From: Candidatus Omnitrophota bacterium
GTDB taxonomy: Bacteria; Omnitrophota; JACPQZ01
DNA: 47,535 nucleotides
NCBI GenBank assembly: GCA_016190205.1
Contig: JACPQZ010000076.1
Span: 68,632 to 116,166, forward strand
Direction: 5' to 3'
Shown here: piece after piece, positions 3,453 through 44,053 of the stretch
Layout of the letters: each line of letters opens with the position of its first letter
Position numbering within the stretch: position 1 is the first letter of the stretch
Notes under the pieces: model-generated
Seen by the model: only the letters and a program-made list of their open reading frames with translations
Told to the model about the DNA's origin: nothing
Database searches by the model: none
Position numbers and translations under genes: made by a program

Positions 3453-5005
3453 TCGGATGCTTTTAACGGATCTTTCTCCAAGCGGCTCTTTAAGGCTGCC
3501 AGCTTTTCCTGAACCTTACTTTGCCCCGGATCCAGCTTCAGGGACTGCTCCCAGTGCTCCTGGGCCTGGGACCAGAGCTCGAGTTGATTATACATATCTC
3601 CCAAGTGATCTTGGATCACGGGGTCATCGGGCATGAGTTCGCCCGCGCGCTCCAGCCACTTCCGGGCATCCTCCCACATCCCCTTCTTAAAATACACCCA
3701 TCCCAGGCTGTCCACGTAGGCCCCGTTATCTGGCTCGAGCTTAAGGGCCTGCTGAATAAGCTCCAGGGCTTCATCCAGATGCATCCCCGCCTCTGCGTAC
3801 ATATAACCCAGGTAATTGTAGGCATCGGCGTTTTCCGGATTAACCCGGATGGCGCTCTTAAACTCCTCCGCCGCCTTCTCCTTGTCACCCATGCGGTCAT
3901 GCAGGGCGCCCAGCCGGAAATAGACATAATCATTCGTGGATTCGGCGTCCTTGGACTCGTTGAGAAACTGAACCGCCTCCTCATTTTGACCGAGCTCCGC
4001 ATGCGAAATCCCGAGGAGGAAACTCACCTCGTAGTTTTTTCCCGCAAGACCCCGCGCCTTCTCCAACACCCCCACGGCCTCTTCATAGCGCCGCTCCTTT
4101 AAGAGAAGGTAGGCCAGCTCGATGAAGCCGTCCACATGGTCCGGCTTGAGCTCCATGAGAAGTTTGTACTGCTGGATGGCCTCTTCTACCCGCCCGGCCT
4201 GGTAGTACATCTGCCCTAGATGATGGTACACCCTTAAATTCAGGGGATTGACCTTGAGCACCTCCTCGTACTGGGCGATGGACCTGTCCTTTTCGCCCTG
4301 CATCTCATAGATGACGGCAAGCCCCAGGCGCGCCTCCACATAGCCGGGCTTAAGTTCTACGGCCTTGTTGAGCATTGAGAGGGCGGCATCATAGCGGTTC
4401 ATCCGGCTAAACAGGATGCCCAGATTAAAATAGGTGACGGGCTCTGTCCGGCCCGCCGCGATTATTTTTTCATAGACGGCCACGGCCTGCGGCAGCTGGT
4501 CTTCCATGACATAAAGATCCGCCAGCGCGGTCAAGGCCTGTTCGTCTTGAGGCTCCTGCGCCAGGATCTTTTGATAATTCTCAATCGCCTTTGGGTACAT
4601 CTGCCGCGAAGTATAGAGAAGGGCAAGCAGAAAGAGGGGGCGGGTGTTACCAGGATCGAGCTCCTGACTTTTTTCCAGGGCCTCCACGGCCTCGTCAAAA
4701 CGGCCCATGCGAATGAGGCTCGCGCCCAACCGCAGGTGAATGATGGCATTGTCAGGATCGAGGCGCAGGGCCTCCTCGTAAGCATCTATGGCCGCTACGG
4801 TATTGCCGCGGTTGTCGTGCAAAAGGCCGCGCGTGTAGCTGGCCCAGGCCCGAGTCTTGTCGGTATCCGTCTTACCGGTCTTGCGGATGCCCGCGCATCC
4901 GGGCGCGAGGAGGGTGACCAGTATTAGGAGGGAAGCAGCGATTCGTACTGCGTACTGCGTACTGCGTACTGCGAGAGTCGACAGTCGACAGTCGACAGTC
5001 GACAA
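3449..5005 (-). CDS. TPR-repeat lipoprotein with start region inside heptamer repeats
   Basis: From the proposed TTG at 5005 the product has 518 residues. A hydrophobic segment around residues 22-33 is followed by a lipobox-like APGC, with Cys near residue 37, suggesting export and lipidation. The rest is a continuous array of roughly twelve tetratricopeptide repeats (patterns such as AIDAYEEALRLDPDNA), a scaffold for protein-protein contacts. No ATG exists near the signal peptide. The TTG has GGAG seven nt before it; GTG codons at 5020 and 5026 are alternatives. The frame stays open to a GTG at 5221, but that extension is pure heptamer sequence. Residues about 4-21 are encoded by GTCGACA and GTACTGC repeats. 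Binding partners are unknown. Confidence 0.8.
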   Translation of the reverse strand: MSTVDCRLSTLAVRSTQYAVRIAASLLILVTLLAPGCAGIRKTGKTDTDKTRAWASYTRGLLHDNRGNTVAAIDAYEEALRLDPDNAIIHLRLGASLIRMGRFDEAVEALEKSQELDPGNTRPLFLLALLYTSRQMYPKAIENYQKILAQEPQDEQALTALADLYVMEDQLPQAVAVYEKIIAAGRTEPVTYFNLGILFSRMNRYDAALSMLNKAVELKPGYVEARLGLAVIYEMQGEKDRSIAQYEEVLKVNPLNLRVYHHLGQMYYQAGRVEEAIQQYKLLMELKPDHVDGFIELAYLLLKERRYEEAVGVLEKARGLAGKNYEVSFLLGISHAELGQNEEAVQFLNESKDAESTNDYVYFRLGALHDRMGDKEKAAEEFKSAIRVNPENADAYNYLGYMYAEAGMHLDEALELIQQALKLEPDNGAYVDSLGWVYFKKGMWEDARKWLERAGELMPDDPVIQDHLGDMYNQLELWSQAQEHWEQSLKLDPGQSKVQEKLAALKSRLEKDPLKASE

Positions 5006-5219
5006 CCTGCGACTCCGCACATCCACGGCTAGCCTATCACCCCTGCTCCTTCTTGCTTCTTCCTCCGTCTCTCGGCAGACCGTGAACTGTGGACTGTAGA
5101 CAGCGGACAGTGGACCGTGGACCGTGGACTGTGGACGCACAACGCACAACGCACCACGCACCACGCACGACGGGGGATTTTCGGCATGCGATCCCCGATC
5201 CCCGATCCCCGATCCCCGC
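4944..5219. repeat. Five-family heptamer array upstream of and within the TPR lipoprotein start
   Basis: Successive 7-bp arrays are GTACTGC at 4944-4974, GTCGACA at 4977-5005, GTGGACT/GTGGACC at about 5080-5136, CGCACAA/CGCACCA at 5136-5170 and GATCCCC at 5189-5219. Each is tandem with a period of 7 and few mismatches. The array lies between hisG (stop at 5223) and the lipoprotein signal peptide and partly codes for its N-terminus. It is the densest mix of families in the window. Confidence 0.9.
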
Positions 5220-17287: not shown

Positions 17288-17478
17288 TCGTTCGGTTATC
17301 GTTGATCGCAAGCGCCGTAAGCTATCAGCTGTCAGCCTTCAGCCATCAGCAAAAGCTGGAGAAAATAGCTGACGGCCGAAGGCAGAAAGCCCATAATATT
17401 TCTTTTCTTGCGATAACCGATCACCGATAACCGATCACCGAATTGCGATAACCGATCACCGATGACCGATCAACGATC
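17288..17478. repeat. Composite heptamer element: GATCACC family around TCAGCCT family
   Basis: This is the same architecture as 1639-1830: GGTTATC-type repeats, a conserved core at 17305-17350 shared with 1666-1711 (one mismatch in 46 bp), an inverted TCAGC partner at about 17371-17388, and a long returning arm of ATAACCG/ATCACCG heptamers at 17411-17478. The right end reads into the 3' end of the neighbouring TMTC-like gene and supplies its stop codon. Confidence 0.9.
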
Positions 17479-19197
17479 CCCGAACGTTGTGCTTTCCGAC
17501 GCTGCTCCGCCGTGTCCCGACATAAGAAGCACCTGTCCCAGGTTGCGCCCGGCTTCCTCAAGCGCGGGGTCAAGCGCCAGCGCCTCACGATAATACCCCG
17601 CGGCCTCCTTGAGCCTTCCCTGCTCAAAATAGACATTTCCCAGATTATTATAAGCCTGGGCATGGGCCGGGTTCGCCTCAAGCGCTTTTCTTAAATACTC
17701 CTCCGCTTCTGAAAACCGGCCGGTGCGGCTCAGCTCTCCCCCCATATTCGTCAGGGCATCCACATGCCTGGGGCTTAACGACAAGGCCTCCCGGTAGTGC
17801 TTCATGGCCTCGGCGGGATTTCTTCGCCCGCTTTCAACGAGCCCCAGCGCATTGTGCGCATCCGGGTATTCGGCCTTCAGCGCGAGCGCCTTTTTAAGAT
17901 GGTGAGCCGCCTCTTCGTACTGCGCCGAATGGAGGAGGGCGAACCCCAAGTTGTAGTGCGCCCTCGCGTTTGCCGGGCGCTTCTCTACGGTATCACGCCA
18001 GATCTCAGCGTCGCTTTGATAGTCCAGATTGCGAGCCACTGTAAGCACGCCCAGGACGAGGGCAGGGAGCATCGCAAAAGCTGAGCATAGAATGAGACGC
18101 CTTCGTTCCGGTTTCGCCCATTTGTTTAGTGCCCAATACACCGCGAGGGTCGCCAAAGTAGCGACGCAAGCCAGAGGCAAATACATGCGGTGCTCAAACG
18201 CGGGATCCGGTAATGGAATGAAACCGGACGTGGGGGCCAGAATAAGAAAGAAGGCGAGCCCGACGAAACCCACCCTCGGATGCGCAACAGTGGCCCACAG
18301 CGCGAGGACAAAAAGTGCACCGAGGATGAGACCCGGAATCAGCACCCCTTCGCGGGCCACCTGAAGAGGCCAGGCATAATCCAGCACGAGGGGATGAGGC
18401 CAAACGCACAGCTTTAAATACTTGAGAATCACTCCGGGCTGAAGGGCGGCATACTTCAAAGGCGTAAGCTCCGAATAGGTAAACCAGGTGCCCGTCCCGT
18501 GCCTTGCCTGTGCCTGAAGCATAAGCCCCGCAGCCAAAAGTGTCGTTGAGAAAAGGGCAAGGTAAAACCCAAGGCGCCGGGCGAGGGCTTTAAAAAATGA
18601 ACCTGTGACAAAACATCGGTCATAAAGAAGTATGGAGACGGGGACCGTTACCATGACGGGCTTGGCCAGCATGCCTAGGCAAGAGAAAAGAATGCTCGCC
18701 TTAAGCCACCCCTTCCGACCGCGAGGAGTCGTGCCGAGGATGAAGGCATAGAGCGCAGCCAGGTAAAAAAGCCCCATCATGGATTCGCTCCGCTGAATAA
18801 CATACGTCACACTCTCGGTCTGGAGGGGGTGCACGAGCCACAGGAGGGAGATCGAAAAGGCGGGTCCCCACCGGAGCGCGGTCCTCAAGATGAAAAACAA
18901 CAAAAAGGACGCAAGGACGTGGACCGCGAGATTAAACGCATGATACCCCCAAGGATTCAAGCCGCCCAGGCGGTAATTAAAGGCAAGGGACAAATTGAGG
19001 AGCGGTCTTGACTCGCGTTCCCCGGGAATCGCGAAGAGGGTCTCCCACAGAGGCCACAGTTTACGGATGGACGGATTTTTTACAATGTAGCTTTCGTCAT
19101 CAAAGACGAAATCGCCTGAAAAGCTGTTATGGTAAGCGAGGAGGGCGGCCACGAGAAGGAGGATGAGCGAAAGGGCTGTGCCGCGAGTCGCACGCAT
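17470..19197 (-). CDS. TMTC-like multi-pass membrane protein with C-terminal TPRs (paralog 2)
   Basis: This 575-residue product has the same plan as its downstream neighbour. A first hydrophobic segment is followed by FSGDFVFDDESYIVKNPSIR, then HPLQTESVTYVIQRSESMMG, roughly ten membrane helices, FEHRMYLPLA and four to five TPRs at the C-terminus (AHYNLGFALL, ALNNMG-like units). The family fold is GT-C glycosyltransferase; dolichol- or polyprenyl-linked sugar would be the expected donor. The last residues (about TTFGDR) and the stop TGA lie in heptamer sequence, so the original C-terminus may have been replaced. The tandem arrangement suggests gene duplication followed by divergence. Confidence 0.85.
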   Translation of the reverse strand: MRATRGTALSLILLLVAALLAYHNSFSGDFVFDDESYIVKNPSIRKLWPLWETLFAIPGERESRPLLNLSLAFNYRLGGLNPWGYHAFNLAVHVLASFLLFFILRTALRWGPAFSISLLWLVHPLQTESVTYVIQRSESMMGLFYLAALYAFILGTTPRGRKGWLKASILFSCLGMLAKPVMVTVPVSILLYDRCFVTGSFFKALARRLGFYLALFSTTLLAAGLMLQAQARHGTGTWFTYSELTPLKYAALQPGVILKYLKLCVWPHPLVLDYAWPLQVAREGVLIPGLILGALFVLALWATVAHPRVGFVGLAFFLILAPTSGFIPLPDPAFEHRMYLPLACVATLATLAVYWALNKWAKPERRRLILCSAFAMLPALVLGVLTVARNLDYQSDAEIWRDTVEKRPANARAHYNLGFALLHSAQYEEAAHHLKKALALKAEYPDAHNALGLVESGRRNPAEAMKHYREALSLSPRHVDALTNMGGELSRTGRFSEAEEYLRKALEANPAHAQAYNNLGNVYFEQGRLKEAAGYYREALALDPALEEAGRNLGQVLLMSGHGGAASESTTFGDR

Positions 19198-22351: not shown

Positions 22352-22761
22352 GGTCCTTCTCCTCCTCTCACTGTGTCTTGCGCTGCAAACACTTTCTGAA
22401 GGAACTGCCCCGTCGTGCGCGTGTCGCCGAGGCCCCCGCCCACCATAAGCTCGCCCAGCTCCCCCCGGTCGCACCAGAGCCCGTGCAGGCGCGGGCAGCG
22501 GTCTACGAGCACCTTCCGGTCTACGCCATGCGCCACCTTCCTCATCCGCATCCGGCAGATGGGACAGCGCCTCTTTTTTTCACGGGACTTCAAGTCCTCC
22601 GCCCCGAACGACAAAAACACGCGAGCCCTCTCCGAGCCTTCCAGCAAAAGTTCCAACTCACCCTCATCGAGCCACACCCCCCCGCAGTCCATACAGTGGT
22701 CCAGCTCCACTTCATCTAGTTCCAGCACCACCATAGGATCTTTGCAGGCCGGGCAATTCAT
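22348..22761 (-). CDS. Tandem TFIIB-type zinc-ribbon protein
   Basis: The 137-residue protein has two copies of the small ribbon known as zf-TFIIB: CPAC...CMDCGGVWLDEGELELLL near the N-terminus and CPICRMRM...DRCPRLHGLWCDRGELGELM in the middle. Such proteins are soluble and presumed zinc-binding; no enzymatic function is known. The second copy has CxxC then CPRLHGLWC, so one zinc ligand may be unusual. The gene overlaps lemA by 4 nt and thus belongs to a LemA/M48 zinc-linked operon. Confidence 0.85.
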   Translation of the reverse strand: MNCPACKDPMVVLELDEVELDHCMDCGGVWLDEGELELLLEGSERARVFLSFGAEDLKSREKKRRCPICRMRMRKVAHGVDRKVLVDRCPRLHGLWCDRGELGELMVGGGLGDTRTTGQFLQKVFAAQDTVRGGEGP

Positions 22762-23903
22762 TTGATCGAAATAAATGCCTCTTCTTTAAGTTCATTCACC
22801 CATGTCCGGAAGGCCGCAGAGAATTTTTCCTGGTAGAGCGCGTTCTCAATCTCATCGTTAACTTCTTGAAACGCAGGCAGGGATGCCTCCTGTCTCACAT
22901 CCACCCTGAAGAAGTGGTAGCCCACGCGGGACTCGACGGGGCCCGAAATTTCGCTCACCTTCAAAGAAAAGAGGGTCTTGTCAATCTCTTCCACCATTTC
23001 CCCCCGGGAAACGAACCCTAAGTCCCCGCCCTCGTCGCGGTTGGGGCCTTCGGAATACTGCTTGCAGACTTCCTCGAAGGGGGTCCCTTGCTCAAGAAGA
23101 GCGCGCACGCGCTCCAGTTTTTCAAGGACGAGGTCCTGACCCTCCACCGTTGCCTCGTCCTCCGCCTCCCCAAGGCCATCGCCGGCCGGGGCCTCATCTT
23201 CGGGGCGCGCCTTGCGTATGAGGATCATCCTGGCTCTAACCTTCTCCGGCGTCTTAAAATCGTCCGCATGAGCACTATAGTAATCTTGTATCTCCTTGGG
23301 AGATACGATGATACGAGATCTGACCTCCATTCCGATAAGCTGCTGAATCAGGTGCTGGTCCCTGTACTTTTGCCTCAATTCTTCCAGCGAGAGCCCCTGC
23401 TCGCTCACAGCCTGATGGAAGGCTTCCTCCGATTCGAATTTTCCAATGACCTCGCGGACGCGCTCCTCCACCTGCTCGGCGCTCGCCTCGAGTCCCTTTT
23501 CACGCGCCCTCTGCAGAATGAGGTGATCCTCGATGATCTGCCCCAGAATATCCCTGCGTGCCTCGGAGATCTTTCGCACAAGCCCTTCTCCCTGATAAAC
23601 CGTCTGATACTGCGCGACAATGGGATTCAGGCGCTCCATGAGCTCGCTCTGCGTGACGATGTCTTCGTTGACGACCGCGACAATCCTGTCGACTACCTCT
23701 GCCACCGCTATAGATATAACAGGACGGAACCATGATTCGGGAAGCGGGAAGCGGGAAGCGGGAAGCGAAAGAAACCAGATACCAGAAACCAGCAACCAGA
23801 AGAAACCAGTTACCAGAAACCAGAGATGGGGCGAACGGATCTTTTTCTGGTATCTGGTATCTGGTATCCTCTGGTATCTGGTTACTGGTTTCTGGTTACT
23901 CAT
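22758..23903 (-). CDS. surA: SurA-like periplasmic chaperone/peptidyl-prolyl isomerase
   Basis: The mature part starts near residue 69 with EVVDRIVAVVNEDIVTQSEL, the SurA N-terminal domain, and has one parvulin domain around residues 220-345 (ARMILIRKAR, then GGDLGFVSRGEM, and SRVGYHFFRV). SurA assists folding of outer-membrane proteins, so an outer membrane is implied. The start ATG at 23903 overlaps the mfd stop. The first 68 residues have a basic stretch then a hydrophobic one (residues 27-47), and almost all of this is encoded by ACCAGAA and GAAGCGG heptamers. No other canonical start precedes the mature domain except a GTG at 23705 that would lack any signal. Function firm, start moderately sure. 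Confidence 0.87.
   Translation of the reverse strand: MSNQKPVTRYQRIPDTRYQKKIRSPHLWFLVTGFFWLLVSGIWFLSLPASRFPLPESWFRPVISIAVAEVVDRIVAVVNEDIVTQSELMERLNPIVAQYQTVYQGEGLVRKISEARRDILGQIIEDHLILQRAREKGLEASAEQVEERVREVIGKFESEEAFHQAVSEQGLSLEELRQKYRDQHLIQQLIGMEVRSRIIVSPKEIQDYYSAHADDFKTPEKVRARMILIRKARPEDEAPAGDGLGEAEDEATVEGQDLVLEKLERVRALLEQGTPFEEVCKQYSEGPNRDEGGDLGFVSRGEMVEEIDKTLFSLKVSEISGPVESRVGYHFFRVDVRQEASLPAFQEVNDEIENALYQEKFSAAFRTWVNELKEEAFISIK
23739..23900. repeat. Heptamer arrays ACCAGAA and GAAGCGG, coding for the SurA-like signal peptide
   Basis: GAAGCGG occurs about four times at 23739-23768. ACCAGAA/ACCAGCA heptamers cover 23775-23825, and their inverted arm TATCTGG/TTTCTGG covers 23847-23900. The region lies inside the surA-like frame and reaches the mfd stop codon. 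Period 7 is maintained throughout. Confidence 0.9.
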
Positions 23904-25806
23904 GACGCCCACGCCCTCGTCCTTTCAACCGCTCCACTTCCTGTTTCAGCAACTGACAGTACAAATCGAATCCCACTGCAATGATCCAGCCGTGCTGCTC
24001 CGACCCCAGGATATTGCCCGCCCCCCGTATCTCCAAGTCCTCCATCGCGATGTTAAACCCGGAACCCAGTTCCGTAAAGCGCTCGATCGCCTTGAGACGG
24101 CGGCTCCCCTTCTCTGGAATAACCTGCCTGCCGGGATACAGGAAATAGGCATAGGCCTGCCGGTTAAACCGGCCCACGCGACCCCGCAACTGGTAGAGGT
24201 CGGCCAGCCCGAACTGATCGGCCCGGTTGACGATGAGTGTATTCGCGTTTGGGATGTCCAGCCCAGACTCAATGATGTTCGTCGCGACCAGGACATCCAG
24301 CTTTCCGTCCATAAACTTAAGGATGATCTCCTCAAGTTCATGTTCGTCCATCTGCCCGTGGCATATATCCATCTTAGCCTGCGGAACGAGCTTGCGCAAG
24401 CGTTCTGCCACATTTTCTATGCCCTCCACGCGGTTGTGCACGAAGAAAACCTGTCCCCCGCGCTTAAGCTCACGGCACATGGCATCCTGCACCACCTCAT
24501 CGTTATAGGGCTCCACGTGAGTTTCGATGGGGACGCGGTTCTGGGGAGGAGTGCTCACGATCGAAAAATCCTTGATACCCATCAGAGACATATAGAGCGT
24601 TCGCGGGATAGGCGTCGCGGTGAGTGTCAGGACATCCACCACGGTGCGGAAGGACTTGAGTTTCTCCTTGTGACGGACCCCGAAGCGCTGCTCCTCGTCG
24701 ATCACCACGAGCCCCAGCTTCCGGAAGCGGATGTCTTTGGAAAGGAGCCGGTGCGTTCCGATAACGACGTCGCAGGAACCTTCGTCCAAAGCCTTAACCG
24801 TTTGTTTGAGTTCTTGAGAGCTTCGGAACCTAGATAGCATTTGCACGTCGATAGGATATGGGGCGAACCGCTTCTTAAAGGTCCGGTAATGCTGTTCCGC
24901 GAGAATCGTGGTAGGCACGAGCAGAGCGGCCTGCTTGCCGCTCTCAACAGCCTTAAAAACCGCCCGGAGCGCCACCTCCGTTTTTCCGTAACCGACGTCG
25001 CCGCAGATGAGGCGATCCATAGGATAAAGGCGCTCCATGTCACGCTTGACCTCTTCGCTTGACCGGGTCTGGTCGAGCGTCTCCTCAAACTCGAACGACG
25101 CCTCCAGCTCCTTCTGCCACGCGCCGTCAGGCCCGAAGGCAAAACCCCGCTTCGCACGCCGAACAGCCTCCAGCCTCAATAAATCCTCGGCGAGATGACC
25201 CACCGCAAGCCGGGCCTTTTTCTTCATCCGCCCCCATTCCGAGCCCTGCATCCGGCTCAATTTCGGGGCCCTTCCCCCCACCCCGACGTAGCGCCTCAAA
25301 AGCCCCGCCTGATCCACCGGGCAATAAAGCCTTTCATTATCCGCGTATCGTATGACGAGGTGCTCGACCCGGCGGCGCTCAATCTCAAGGTACTCCCATC
25401 CCACGAAGCGGCCGATGCCATATTGAATGTGCACCACGTGATCTCCGGGTTCCAGGGTGCGCAACTCATCGATGGGCGCGATCTCCCGCCATCCAAAGGG
25501 GGCCTCCTTGATTTGGGCGGGTTTAACGCAGCGGGCGGGGAGGATAACAACGCGCTGGTGGCTGGCGAGAAAGTGCCCTGCCTGATCGTCAAAGCTCCGC
25601 ACAGAAATGACGGAATCTCCGGAAAACTCAACACGCAGGGGGCTGTGGTGGGTGATGGGGAAAATATCCACGAGCCCGCCGCGCACGCAAAAATCGCCCC
25701 GTTCCGCCACCCGGCGAACGCCCTGGTAGCCCAGCTCAACGAGGCGACTGGCAACTATGCTTGGCGAGCTTTTCTTATGTACTTCTACGGTGAGTAAATC
25801 AAACAC
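23896..25806 (-). CDS. mfd: Short Mfd-like transcription-repair translocase (mini-Mfd)
   Basis: The 636 residues keep a UvrB-like domain 2 (about 1-92, with FCVRGGLVDIFP), the CarD-like RNA-polymerase-interacting domain (about 121-180, HIQYGIGRF), and both RecG-type motor domains: Walker A GDVGYGKTE near residue 269, DEEQRFG, TATPIPRTL and QLRGRVGR. Bacterial Mfd is about 1,100 residues. Absent are domain 1a, the domain 1b/3 block normally between domain 2 and the polymerase domain, and the autoinhibitory C-terminal domain 7. The start is a GTG with an in-frame TAA five codons upstream. The frame ends exactly at a heptamer array. It is intact as a reading frame, so possibly functional as a polymerase translocase rather than a full coupling factor. 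Confidence 0.85.
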   Translation of the reverse strand: MFDLLTVEVHKKSSPSIVASRLVELGYQGVRRVAERGDFCVRGGLVDIFPITHHSPLRVEFSGDSVISVRSFDDQAGHFLASHQRVVILPARCVKPAQIKEAPFGWREIAPIDELRTLEPGDHVVHIQYGIGRFVGWEYLEIERRRVEHLVIRYADNERLYCPVDQAGLLRRYVGVGGRAPKLSRMQGSEWGRMKKKARLAVGHLAEDLLRLEAVRRAKRGFAFGPDGAWQKELEASFEFEETLDQTRSSEEVKRDMERLYPMDRLICGDVGYGKTEVALRAVFKAVESGKQAALLVPTTILAEQHYRTFKKRFAPYPIDVQMLSRFRSSQELKQTVKALDEGSCDVVIGTHRLLSKDIRFRKLGLVVIDEEQRFGVRHKEKLKSFRTVVDVLTLTATPIPRTLYMSLMGIKDFSIVSTPPQNRVPIETHVEPYNDEVVQDAMCRELKRGGQVFFVHNRVEGIENVAERLRKLVPQAKMDICHGQMDEHELEEIILKFMDGKLDVLVATNIIESGLDIPNANTLIVNRADQFGLADLYQLRGRVGRFNRQAYAYFLYPGRQVIPEKGSRRLKAIERFTELGSGFNIAMEDLEIRGAGNILGSEQHGWIIAVGFDLYCQLLKQEVERLKGRGRGRHE

Positions 25807-25853
25807 GTCAACCCACTTTTACGTCGGGCCGATTTAAGCAGAGAACGCCCGGC

Positions 25854-26082
25854 CCGGCCCCTCGGGCCGCCTGCGGGCCGATCTCAAGCATCCAGGATAC
25901 TGCACCCGGGGCCGGCACCCTTCTCCGCGAAACGTTCGCGCCCCAGCGAGGCGCTCACTCTGCATTTTTTGTGCACCGCAGCCCTCTTAAGCGAGCGGGC
26001 GGACCGTGCTGCACAAAAAATGAGGTTCGCTCCGAAGGGCGCCGCCCCCGGCTGCGATCGGCCCGCTGGCCCCAGGGGTCGG
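25854..26082. repeat. Giant foldback H1 between mfd and rplQ
   Basis: Nested inverted segments are 25854-25862 with 26074-26082, an 11-bp perfect pair 25873-25883 with 26056-26066, 25906-25923 with 26034-26051 (imperfect), and a 13-bp perfect pair 25963-25975 with 26010-26022. A small hairpin lies at 25927-25940. The region can form one 229-nt branched stem. I see no gene in it; open frames there have no recognisable product. Confidence 0.82.
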
Positions 26083-26096
26083 ATGACAGAAATTGA

Positions 26097-26372
26097 GAAC
26101 GCCCGGCTCGGACCCTGAAGGCCGCTTCGGCTGTTTTAGGTGTTCTCCGCAGACGGCGAGGGATAGAGAACGGCTGCTGTCTGAGGCCCGATTCGAGCGC
26201 GATCCGCCGAAGGCGGAAAAATCAGCCAGTGGGCTGATTTTGGAAGCGCGAGTGCTTAATCGGGCCGAGTTCAGCCGTTCCCCGAGCCGGCCAGGAGAAC
26301 ACCGACCCCCTGGATGCTTGGTGGTACGGTGGGAAAACAGACGGCGGCCTGAAGGGGACGAGACGGGCGTTC
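26097..26372. repeat. Giant foldback H2 between mfd and rplQ
   Basis: At least eight nested pairs were found: 26097-26105 with 26364-26372, 26120-26125 with 26344-26349, 26131-26137 with 26334-26340, 26139-26148 with 26294-26303, 26168-26176 with 26272-26280, 26185-26193 with 26258-26266, and apical hairpins 26204-26216 and 26218-26241. The order is strictly nested, as in a structured RNA or a decayed inverted repeat. Conserved motifs of RNase P RNA, tmRNA, SRP RNA and group II intron domain V are absent. Confidence 0.82.
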
Positions 26373-26374
26373 TA

Positions 26375-26537
26375 GAAGCTATCCCGAAACCCCCTTTCTG
26401 CTGCAATCGCTGCTTTTGGCCTGCGCCTTTGCGCCGCTCAGCTTGCGCACCGCTACGGGTGCGCGGCGCCTCACGCCGCTGCGGCTCGGCCTCAAAAGCA
26501 GCGATTTCGCTACGAAATGAGGTTTCGGGATAGCTTC
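26375..26537. repeat. Giant foldback H3 immediately downstream of rplQ
   Basis: The ends 26375-26391 and 26521-26537 are a perfect 17-bp inverted repeat. Inside, 26405-26421 pairs with 26488-26506 (two-base bulge), and GCGCACC at 26445 pairs with GGTGCGC ending at 26464. It begins 10 nt after the rplQ stop codon and could serve as a terminator or processing structure for the alpha-operon transcript. H1-H3 together account for most of the 741-bp gene-free stretch 25807-26547. Confidence 0.83.
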
Positions 26538-26547
26538 CAGTTTACGG

Positions 26548-35049: not shown

Positions 35050-35275
35050 GCTTGTCGCTAGTCGCTAGATGCTAGTCGCTAGCAGAAAAGCAGTCGCTAG
35101 TGACTGGTCGCTAGCAAGAGTCGATAGACCACAGTCCATAGTCCACAAGCCAAACCGTGGACTGTTGACCGTGGACTGAGGACTACAGGCGCCCAGCGAC
35201 TTTTTTCTTGCCAGCGACTGGCGACCAGCGACTTTTTTCTTGCCAGCGACTGGCGACCAGCGACTAGCGACTAAA
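35050..35275. repeat. Nested heptamer array: GTCGCTA outer, GTCCACA inner
   Basis: GTCGCTA units at 35053-35115 are followed by CCACAGT/CCATAGT units at 35120-35148, the inverse GTGGACT/GTTGACC at 35155-35185, and CGACCAG/CGACTAG units at 35191-35275. Within the last part a 32-bp block (35194-35225) is repeated exactly in tandem (35226-35257). It fills the 253-bp gap between rplF and rpsH. Confidence 0.92.
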
Positions 35276-43114: not shown

Positions 43115-43275
43115 CTCGTACTGCGTACTGCGTCGTGCGTACTGCGTAACGTCTGGGCGAGCAGGATTCGTACAGCGTACAGCGTCGTGCGTACAGCGAA
43201 CGAAAACCCATTCTCTACTTTCACGCAGTACGCCGTACGCAGTACGCTGTACGCTGTACGCGGTACGCTGTACGT
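43115..43275. repeat. Nested heptamer element, GTACTGC / TACGCTG family
   Basis: Positions 43116-43178 are identical to 7313-7375 over 63 bp, including a non-repeat core. Then TACAGCG units (to 43198), a central GAAAACCCATTCTC block, and a returning arm of ACGCAGT/ACGCCGT/ACGCTGT units at 43223-43275. It lies between rplC and rpsJ. Confidence 0.92.
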
Positions 43276-43291
43276 AACCTGCAGCCAACGA

Positions 43292-43621
43292 TCATGTCTT
43301 AATCTCCACATCCACGCCCGCCGGAAGATCGAGCTTCATGAGCGCATCCACCGTCTTTGCCGTAGGATTCATAATATCGATCAGGCGCTTATGCGTTTTG
43401 ATCTGAAACTGATCCCGCGACTTTTTGTCGATCACAGGACTGCGCAATACGGTATAGTCTTCCCGCTTGGTCGGAAGAGGGATCGGCCCCGATACCAGCG
43501 CGCCGGTCCTCAAGGCCGTGCTTACAATTTCAGCCGCAGACTTATCCAAGATGCGGTGGTCGTAGGCCCTGAGCCTGATCCTTACCTTCTGTTTCGCTTT
43601 AACAGGCGCTGTGGTTGTCAT
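43292..43621 (-). CDS. rpsJ: Ribosomal protein S10
   Basis: S10 belongs to the 30S head and also forms part of antitermination complexes with Nus[73 protein letters not shown] is the family signature. It has 109 residues with a short N-terminal extension ([11 protein letters not shown]). Confidence 0.99.
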
Positions 43622-43649
43622 CTTTCACCCTCTTAGCGAGCCCGGTCCG

Positions 43650-43775
43650 TGCTTCGTTCTTCGTTCTTCGTGCTTCGTGCTTCGTGCGTCGTGCGTCCCA
43701 CAGACTGCCGGGTAACGAGTGAGGGGATCTTTTTTAGCTGTTACGAAGCACGAGGCACGCGGCACGAAGCACGCC
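43650..43775. repeat. Heptamer array, GTGCTTC / ACGAAGC family
   Basis: The left arm CGTTCTT/CGTTCTT/CGTGCTT/CGTGCTT/CGTGCGT/CGTGCGT (43651-43697) faces ACGAAGCACGAGGCACGCGGCACGAAGCACG-type units (43743-43773). It lies between rpsJ and rpmG. Confidence 0.9.
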
Positions 43776-43780
43776 CTGTG

Positions 43781-43933
43781 CTATTTATGCTCCTTGTGCT
43801 CAGTATGCTTCCGGCAGAACGGGCAATATTTCGAGCGCACCAATCGATCGGTATGCGTTTTCCGATTCTTGCGGGTTGTATAATTGCGCCGGCTGCAAAC
43901 GCCGCACGCCATCGTTATAACCTCTGCCGCCAT
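43781..43933 (-). CDS. rpmG: Ribosomal protein L33, zinc type
   Basis: Translating from ATG 43933 gives 50 residues that begin [20 protein letters not shown], continue [20 protein letters not shown] and end in [10 protein letters not shown]. Zinc ligands CxxC and CxxC are present. L33 is on the 50S E-site side. Its position between tuf and rpsJ is less common than between tuf and secE, since the usual tRNA-Trp/secE/nusG unit is absent here. It is too short for the usual frame cut-off but fully supported. Confidence 0.97.
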
Positions 43934-43957
43934 CTTTCACTCTCTAAGCTTGCACGG

Positions 43958-44053
43958 TTCGTACTGCGTCTTGCGTCGTGCGTACTGCGAAAGAAAAACC
44001 ATTCTCGTCCTTCACGCTGTACGCAGTACGCAGTACGCTGTACGCTTCACGCG
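43958..44053. repeat. Heptamer array, GTACTGC / GTACGCA family
   Basis: GTACTGCGTCTTGCGTCGTGCGTACTGCG units (43960-43989) face ACGCTGTACGCAGTACGCAGTACGCTGTACGC units (44013-44046). It lies between rpmG and tuf and ends at the tuf stop codon. Confidence 0.9.

Follow-up and report, generated by a model that had tools for sequence, protein, structure and literature searches.

Buchnera, whose genome has no uvrABC, possesses a naturally shortened Mfd that lacks the UvrA-binding end but retains the C-terminal one. In the full-length Mfd/TRCF of E. coli (1148 aa; TIGR00580), the motor is derepressed once either D7 or D1-3 has been deleted, the UvrA-binding face of D2 is covered by D7, and the protein without D7 still carries out TCR in vitro and in vivo; a second engineered form lacks the UvrB homology module, which comprises D1a, D2 and D1b (PMC3025350). 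In current models, D7-D2 masking and a multistep rearrangement of D1-D3 and D7 act as a safeguard, holding Mfd inactive unless it meets a genuinely stalled polymerase (PMC7864632). Here we describe what is, judging from sequence comparison, a phylum-wide clamp-free variant of Mfd, of which we found no earlier description in the open-access literature.

The window, a 47,535-nucleotide stretch of a Candidatus Omnitrophota contig, carries a 636-residue mini-Mfd (Table 1) that begins with GTG and whose frame is only 640 aa from stop to stop, so that no longer or hidden N-terminus is possible in frame. Its TIGR00580 match covers profile positions 1-73 and then 303-825 of 907 and, at 870.3 bits, exceeds the equivalog cut-off of 800, so that automatic annotation would label it Mfd unremarked. 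The Pfam domains UvrB_inter, CarD_TRCF_RID, DEAD and Helicase_C follow one another in an Mfd-like order, and the Walker A, DEEQ, motif VI and TRG residues are all intact, in agreement with the initial annotation, which had read the gene as a UvrB-like D2, an RNA-polymerase-interacting domain (RID) and two motor domains with intact motifs. MFD_D3 and TRCF (D7), however, have no Pfam match in the mini-Mfd, whereas E. coli Mfd scanned likewise shows both. Aligned to E. coli Mfd (44% identity over aligned columns), the protein starts near the D1a-D2 boundary, has only a short linker between D2 and the residues immediately preceding the RID, and stops right after the TRG helices. A tblastn search of the whole window with D1a, D1b/D3 and D7 of six full-length Mfds returned chance-level matches only, and the same search recovered D2 at E values down to 1e-17. 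Weak matches (E 0.006-0.009), the better D7 ones lying in the EF-G and rplD frames, were weighed as possible remnants of D7 or D1 at other places in the window and rejected as chance. The proposed absence of domains 1a, 1b/3 and 7 is thus borne out by Pfam, the alignment, the stop-to-stop frame and tblastn, and because D7 (PF03461) is missing we describe the protein as an Mfd variant rather than a canonical Mfd. The UvrA-recruiting part had also been called shortened, which holds for the lost D1a and D1b but not for D2 itself, a complete domain that covers positions 1-89 of the 91 in its Pfam profile.

Table 1. Features of the mini-mfd locus (window positions) and the uvrC gene of the same genome
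Feature	Position	Strand	Basis
mini-mfd CDS, 636 aa + stop	23896..25806	-	ORF list, NCBIfam TIGR00580, Pfam
D2, UvrB-like interaction domain, aa 5-92	25531..25794	-	Pfam PF17757 (UvrB_inter), E 1.7e-18; alignments
D2 residue equivalents: R42 = E. coli R165, R58 = R181, S62 = F185			alignments
D2-RID linker, aa 93-117, in place of D1b + D3 of full-length Mfd	25456..25530	-	AlphaFold pLDDT < 50 for aa 95-113; alignment gap
RNA-polymerase-interacting domain (RID), aa 118-174	25285..25455	-	Pfam PF02559 (CarD_TRCF_RID), E 3.4e-17
Relay helix, aa 189-218	25153..25242	-	unbroken helix in the AlphaFold model; E. coli Mfd alignment
Translocation domain 1 / D5, DEAD core, aa 263-404; Walker A K275, DEEQ 370-373	24595..25020	-	Pfam PF00270 (DEAD)
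Translocation domain 2 / D6, Helicase_C, aa 442-548	24163..24483	-	Pfam PF00271 (Helicase_C)
TRG helical-hairpin region, aa 570-629; protein end just beyond	23920..24099	-	R953, Q963 equivalents
surA/PpiC-type chaperone gene, downstream of mini-mfd	22758..23912	-	Pfam Rotamase + SurA_N
Heptamer arrays abutting mini-mfd stop codon	23738-23767, 23770-23824, 23846-23896	.	TRF
uvrC of the window's genome	L186 446-1885 (G000 C64)		examined with L187, L189

Motor and TRG residues vary little or not at all. The equivalents of K634, D729 and E730 (D5), R902 and R905 (D6) and R953 and Q963 (TRG) are present in 83 of 83 aligned minis, and both PF02559 (RID) and PF17757 (D2) were found in all 32 mini proteins scanned. 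The AlphaFold model (pLDDT 81, pTM 0.68) finds its best structural matches among solved Mfds (Foldseek, VIA-align). A structure prediction had been suggested as a check on whether the D2-RID junction folds; D2, RID and motor are indeed folded with fair confidence, but the junction itself is disordered over aa 95-113, leaving D2 on a low-confidence tether.

Relatives with full-length mfd, which the initial annotation had named as a refutation of its reading, did not turn up within the phylum: every Omnitrophota Mfd that we fetched is the short form (59 complete proteins, 626-656 aa). A strong mfd match (E<=1e-150) is present in 258 of 285 Omnitrophota genomes; among the matches listed (about 150), ends fall at about position 820-844 of the 907 positions of TIGR00580 and open frames are nearly all 620-680 aa. 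Unusually long open frames in two genomes (G043, G095) owe their extra sequence (L099, L182) to a SecD/SecF-like upstream gene and not to Mfd domains. The D7 domain (PF03461) was found nowhere in any of the 285 genomes, while 10 of 10 bacterial controls were positive, as were the tested genomes of verrucomicrobial, nitrospirotal, chloroflexal and actinobacterial origin. The survey covered Omnitrophota and one control phylum, reached via a verrucomicrobial locus, in which mfd occurs in 140 of 145 genomes with open frames mostly of 1,025-1,320 aa (almost all >1,000 aa) and matches mostly reaching about profile position 900. The best named relatives come from Candidatus Omnitrophota contigs, on which the gene is colinear and equal in size, and relatives from Bacillota, Chloroflexi, Verrucomicrobia and Nitrospirota measure 1,072-1,253 aa with 126-170 residues beyond the motor. 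The full-length comparators, taken from the best matches of the query with E. coli added, do not form a balanced sample. For its own family and order, the window's genome (G000) was the only one returned.

The missing domains could in principle be supplied in trans by separate proteins. This we hold to be very improbable, as the TIGR00580 search of the window's own genome yielded only the mini-mfd and other helicase-like matches, PF03461 is lacking across the phylum, and neither D1a, D1b/D3 nor D7 rises above chance in the window. The same search answers the suggestion that a second, full-length mfd be looked for: none was found, and the mini is the sole mfd of its genome.

In a tree of the RID and motor (rooting imposed), a single branch with an SH-aLRT of 91 sets off the 59 minis, whose neighbours are a Nitrospirota and a Verrucomicrobia protein. 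This grouping is consistent with a single origin, and since all other sampled phyla have D7, a single loss, at the phylum's base or close to it, would be the simplest reading. The short Mfd thus appears to be an old inherited design of Omnitrophota and not local damage. Some lineages have lost mfd altogether (G002, G003, G006, G009, G012, G015, G045 and G119), and 15 of 16 mfd-negative genomes checked with the RID profile are also without any RID.

The heptamer arrays reported at the end of the gene do exist and touch the stop codon, which had led to the proposal of a repeat-driven truncation. This proposal did not survive the comparison, as Omnitrophota homologues end 0-23 residues from the aligned end of the window protein, 40 further minis from many families of the phylum end 0-19 residues from it, and comparable 7-base periodicity near the stop occurs in only 1 of 94 homologues. 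From the common end point and the rarity of the periodicity it follows that the arrays did not create the short form, and their position at the stop is best regarded as coincidental. A local truncation, pseudogene or assembly error therefore has practically nothing to recommend it beyond the adjoining arrays: the architecture and end point are common to the whole phylum, the catalytic motifs are all intact, and the phylum survey rules out a pseudogene, assembly artefact or repeat truncation as the origin of the short Mfd.

Among the 94 loci whose sequence extends far enough, 83 have a SurA/PpiC gene directly downstream of mini-mfd. The same is true of the window, where the start region of this gene (23738-23912) overlaps the arrays, so that the N-terminal residues may be encoded by the repeat or wrongly called. 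Heptamer and 14-mer arrays occur at many places in the window (for example 4944-5218, 17408-17483, 23738-23896, 35188-35271 and 43223-44046), with the unit CGTACTG seen again at 4944, 7314, 37368 and 43117. Mini-mfd and rplQ lie about 740 bases apart, and the sequence between them (25807-26547) holds many imperfect inverted repeats, such as 25963-26022 and 26372-26540.

Compared with full-length Mfd, the mini-Mfd has in common D2, RID, relay helix, D5-D6 motor and TRG; it differs in lacking D1a, D1b, D3 and D7, in the loss of F185 and the QR[S/T] motif, and in the gain of Y572Q and Q895D/E. Among its closest counterparts is the engineered E. coli Mfd without D7, which likewise lacks the autoinhibitory C-terminal domain and retains TCR (PMC3025350). 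Unlike the engineered mutants, the natural protein combines the loss of D7 with that of D1a, D1b and D3 while keeping D2; as both clamp parts are absent and D2 is tethered, it resembles a D7 deletion from which the D1/D3 scaffold has also been removed. Within the open-access literature we found no description of this combination or of any naturally D7-less Mfd, nor a mention of Omnitrophota or Omnitrophica together with mfd. The Thermus thermophilus Mfd (978 aa, PDB 6m6a) also has a shortened N-terminal part, its RID-motor match starting with residue 317 where that of E. coli starts with 472, but in contrast to the mini it has about 148 residues after the motor, so that the C-terminal domain is presumably kept. 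RecG has a motor and TRG of the same family, and its structure (PDB 1gm5) aligns over 415 residues at an rmsd of 3.8, but it has neither RID nor UvrB-like D2. An identification of the mini as RecG was rejected, as RecG models score it at 188-396 bits, each below its own cut-off, and RID and D2 are present instead; a separate RecG-like match exists in the window's genome (C11).

We found uvrA in 139 of 146 Omnitrophota genomes, that of the window included, uvrB in 137 of 146 and uvrC in 94 of 97. A check for uvrA, uvrB and uvrC in the window's genome had been recommended; uvrA and a uvrC gene (Table 1) are present, and uvrB was not found in the assembly, which is 92.8% complete. UvrA and UvrB matches in the phylum are full length, and many larger-genome Omnitrophota (families f2, f7, f12 and others) have two UvrA matches, the first of about 1,220-1,290 bits and the second of about 1,000-1,085. 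UvrC is slimmed in most genomes to about 400-510 aa, with profile positions about 233-365 missing; the Pfam domain UvrC_RNaseH (PF22920), which E. coli UvrC possesses, has no match in the three Omnitrophota UvrCs scanned, and the UvrC of L189 is also without a C-terminal helix-hairpin-helix match.

Moreover, mfd tends to disappear together with uvrA: strong mfd is absent in 4 of 7 uvrA-less versus 6 of 139 uvrA-bearing genomes (Fisher p 3.6e-4, kinship ignored), with families f3, f21 and f35 behind the co-loss. At the thresholds applied, one genome (G045) has none of mfd, uvrA, uvrB and uvrC, and the mfd-less f3 genome and two f21 genomes are also without uvrA and uvrB. Several mfd-less f4 genomes retain uvrA, and mostly uvrB too.

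The D2 residues R165, R181 and F185 are those substituted in an E. coli Mfd mutant without UvrA binding and TCR (PMC3025350). Counting minis as sequences and not as independent events, F185, an F in all 25 full-length proteins of the comparison, gives way to D, E, S, N or other residues in 114 of 119 and is kept in five of the 119, R165 is kept in 105 of 118 and lost in 13, and R181 is kept in every mini that has a residue at that position. The minis have also lost the QR[S/T] motif, conserved elsewhere, which lies in D2 at E. coli residues 200-202. Since F185 is replaced and R181 kept, UvrA docking by the mini D2 may be tuned down or altered, and with R165 also lost in 13 of 118 some lineages may dock UvrA weakly or no longer at all. 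On the UvrA side, R216 and E222, which are needed for the UvrB-type contact, are kept in 10 of 10 UvrAs. Mean pairwise identity of D2 is 0.435 among minis versus 0.504 among full-length proteins, against 0.625 versus 0.669 for D6, so that D2 conservation relative to the motor is close to that in full-length Mfd.

These substitutions bear on the possibility that RID and motor serve a repair-independent rescue or clearance of RNA polymerase, with D2 kept for folding or for another partner and no longer recruiting UvrA. The replacement of F185 and the loss of the QR[S/T] motif would fit such a role, as would the change of R165 to I or L in several lineages (for example L085, L093, L110 and L113), including L110 and L093 from the uvrA-bearing genomes G094 and G011, and the retention of a mini-Mfd with an ordinary-looking D2 in the uvrA-less genomes G069 and G110. 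We nevertheless consider it unlikely, because R181 is preserved, D2 is conserved relative to the motor almost as in full-length Mfd, and mfd loss follows uvrA loss in several families. The specialised polymerase translocase of the initial annotation was close and, as to a specialised Mfd, partly right, but with D2 kept and NER genes common in the phylum, a repair-coupled role is likelier than a purely transcriptional one. Either UvrA docking may have been weakened as a substitute for masking, or D2 may have lost UvrA in part of the phylum.

We regard it as probable that the Omnitrophota Mfd is a natural clamp-free transcription-repair coupling factor inherited across the phylum, the best reading given that removal of D7 from E. 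coli Mfd leaves TCR working. Of this, the comparisons show the domain content, the absence of the clamp domains, the grouping on a single branch, the retention of motor and RID, the common NER genes and the co-loss of mfd and uvrA. In such a model the RID would bind the stalled RNA polymerase, the D5-D6/TRG motor would translocate on upstream DNA, pushing or removing the polymerase, and D2 on its flexible tether would recruit UvrA. With neither half of the autoinhibitory clamp left, be it the D1-D3 scaffold or D7, the motor and D2 are expected to be accessible at all times, as they are in the E. coli Mfd that lacks D7, and the loss of F185 would lower or alter UvrA docking, offsetting the missing mask. 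For the mini-Mfd we thus infer a derepressed motor, UvrA binding by D2 and TCR in vivo. The always active motor suggested earlier would follow soundly from the E. coli mutants without D7 or D1-D3 (PMC3025350).

It is possible, though rather doubtful, that the mini-Mfd is short and not deregulated, with compensatory substitutions or a D2 docked on the motor holding basal activity low, a question of phenotype only and compatible with the coupling role. Changes fixed in the relay helix and motor of the minis, among them Y572 to Q (110 of 119), Q895 to D or E (118 of 119) and F673 to L/M, could have reset basal activity; however, D2 sits on a low-confidence tether in the AlphaFold model and no known inhibitory domain is left. 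Taking the clamp-free coupling factor further, we tentatively suggest that TCR across the phylum may proceed with an exposed D2 detuned by the loss of F185 instead of masked by D7, weak constitutive affinity replacing conformational gating, and with a UvrC without the central RNase H-like domain.

The loss of the D7-D2 safeguard in a phylum that keeps the motor, the RID and D2 suggests that this safeguard is dispensable in nature, and the half-size coupling factor offers a test case for what determines UvrA recruitment, processivity and polymerase discrimination.
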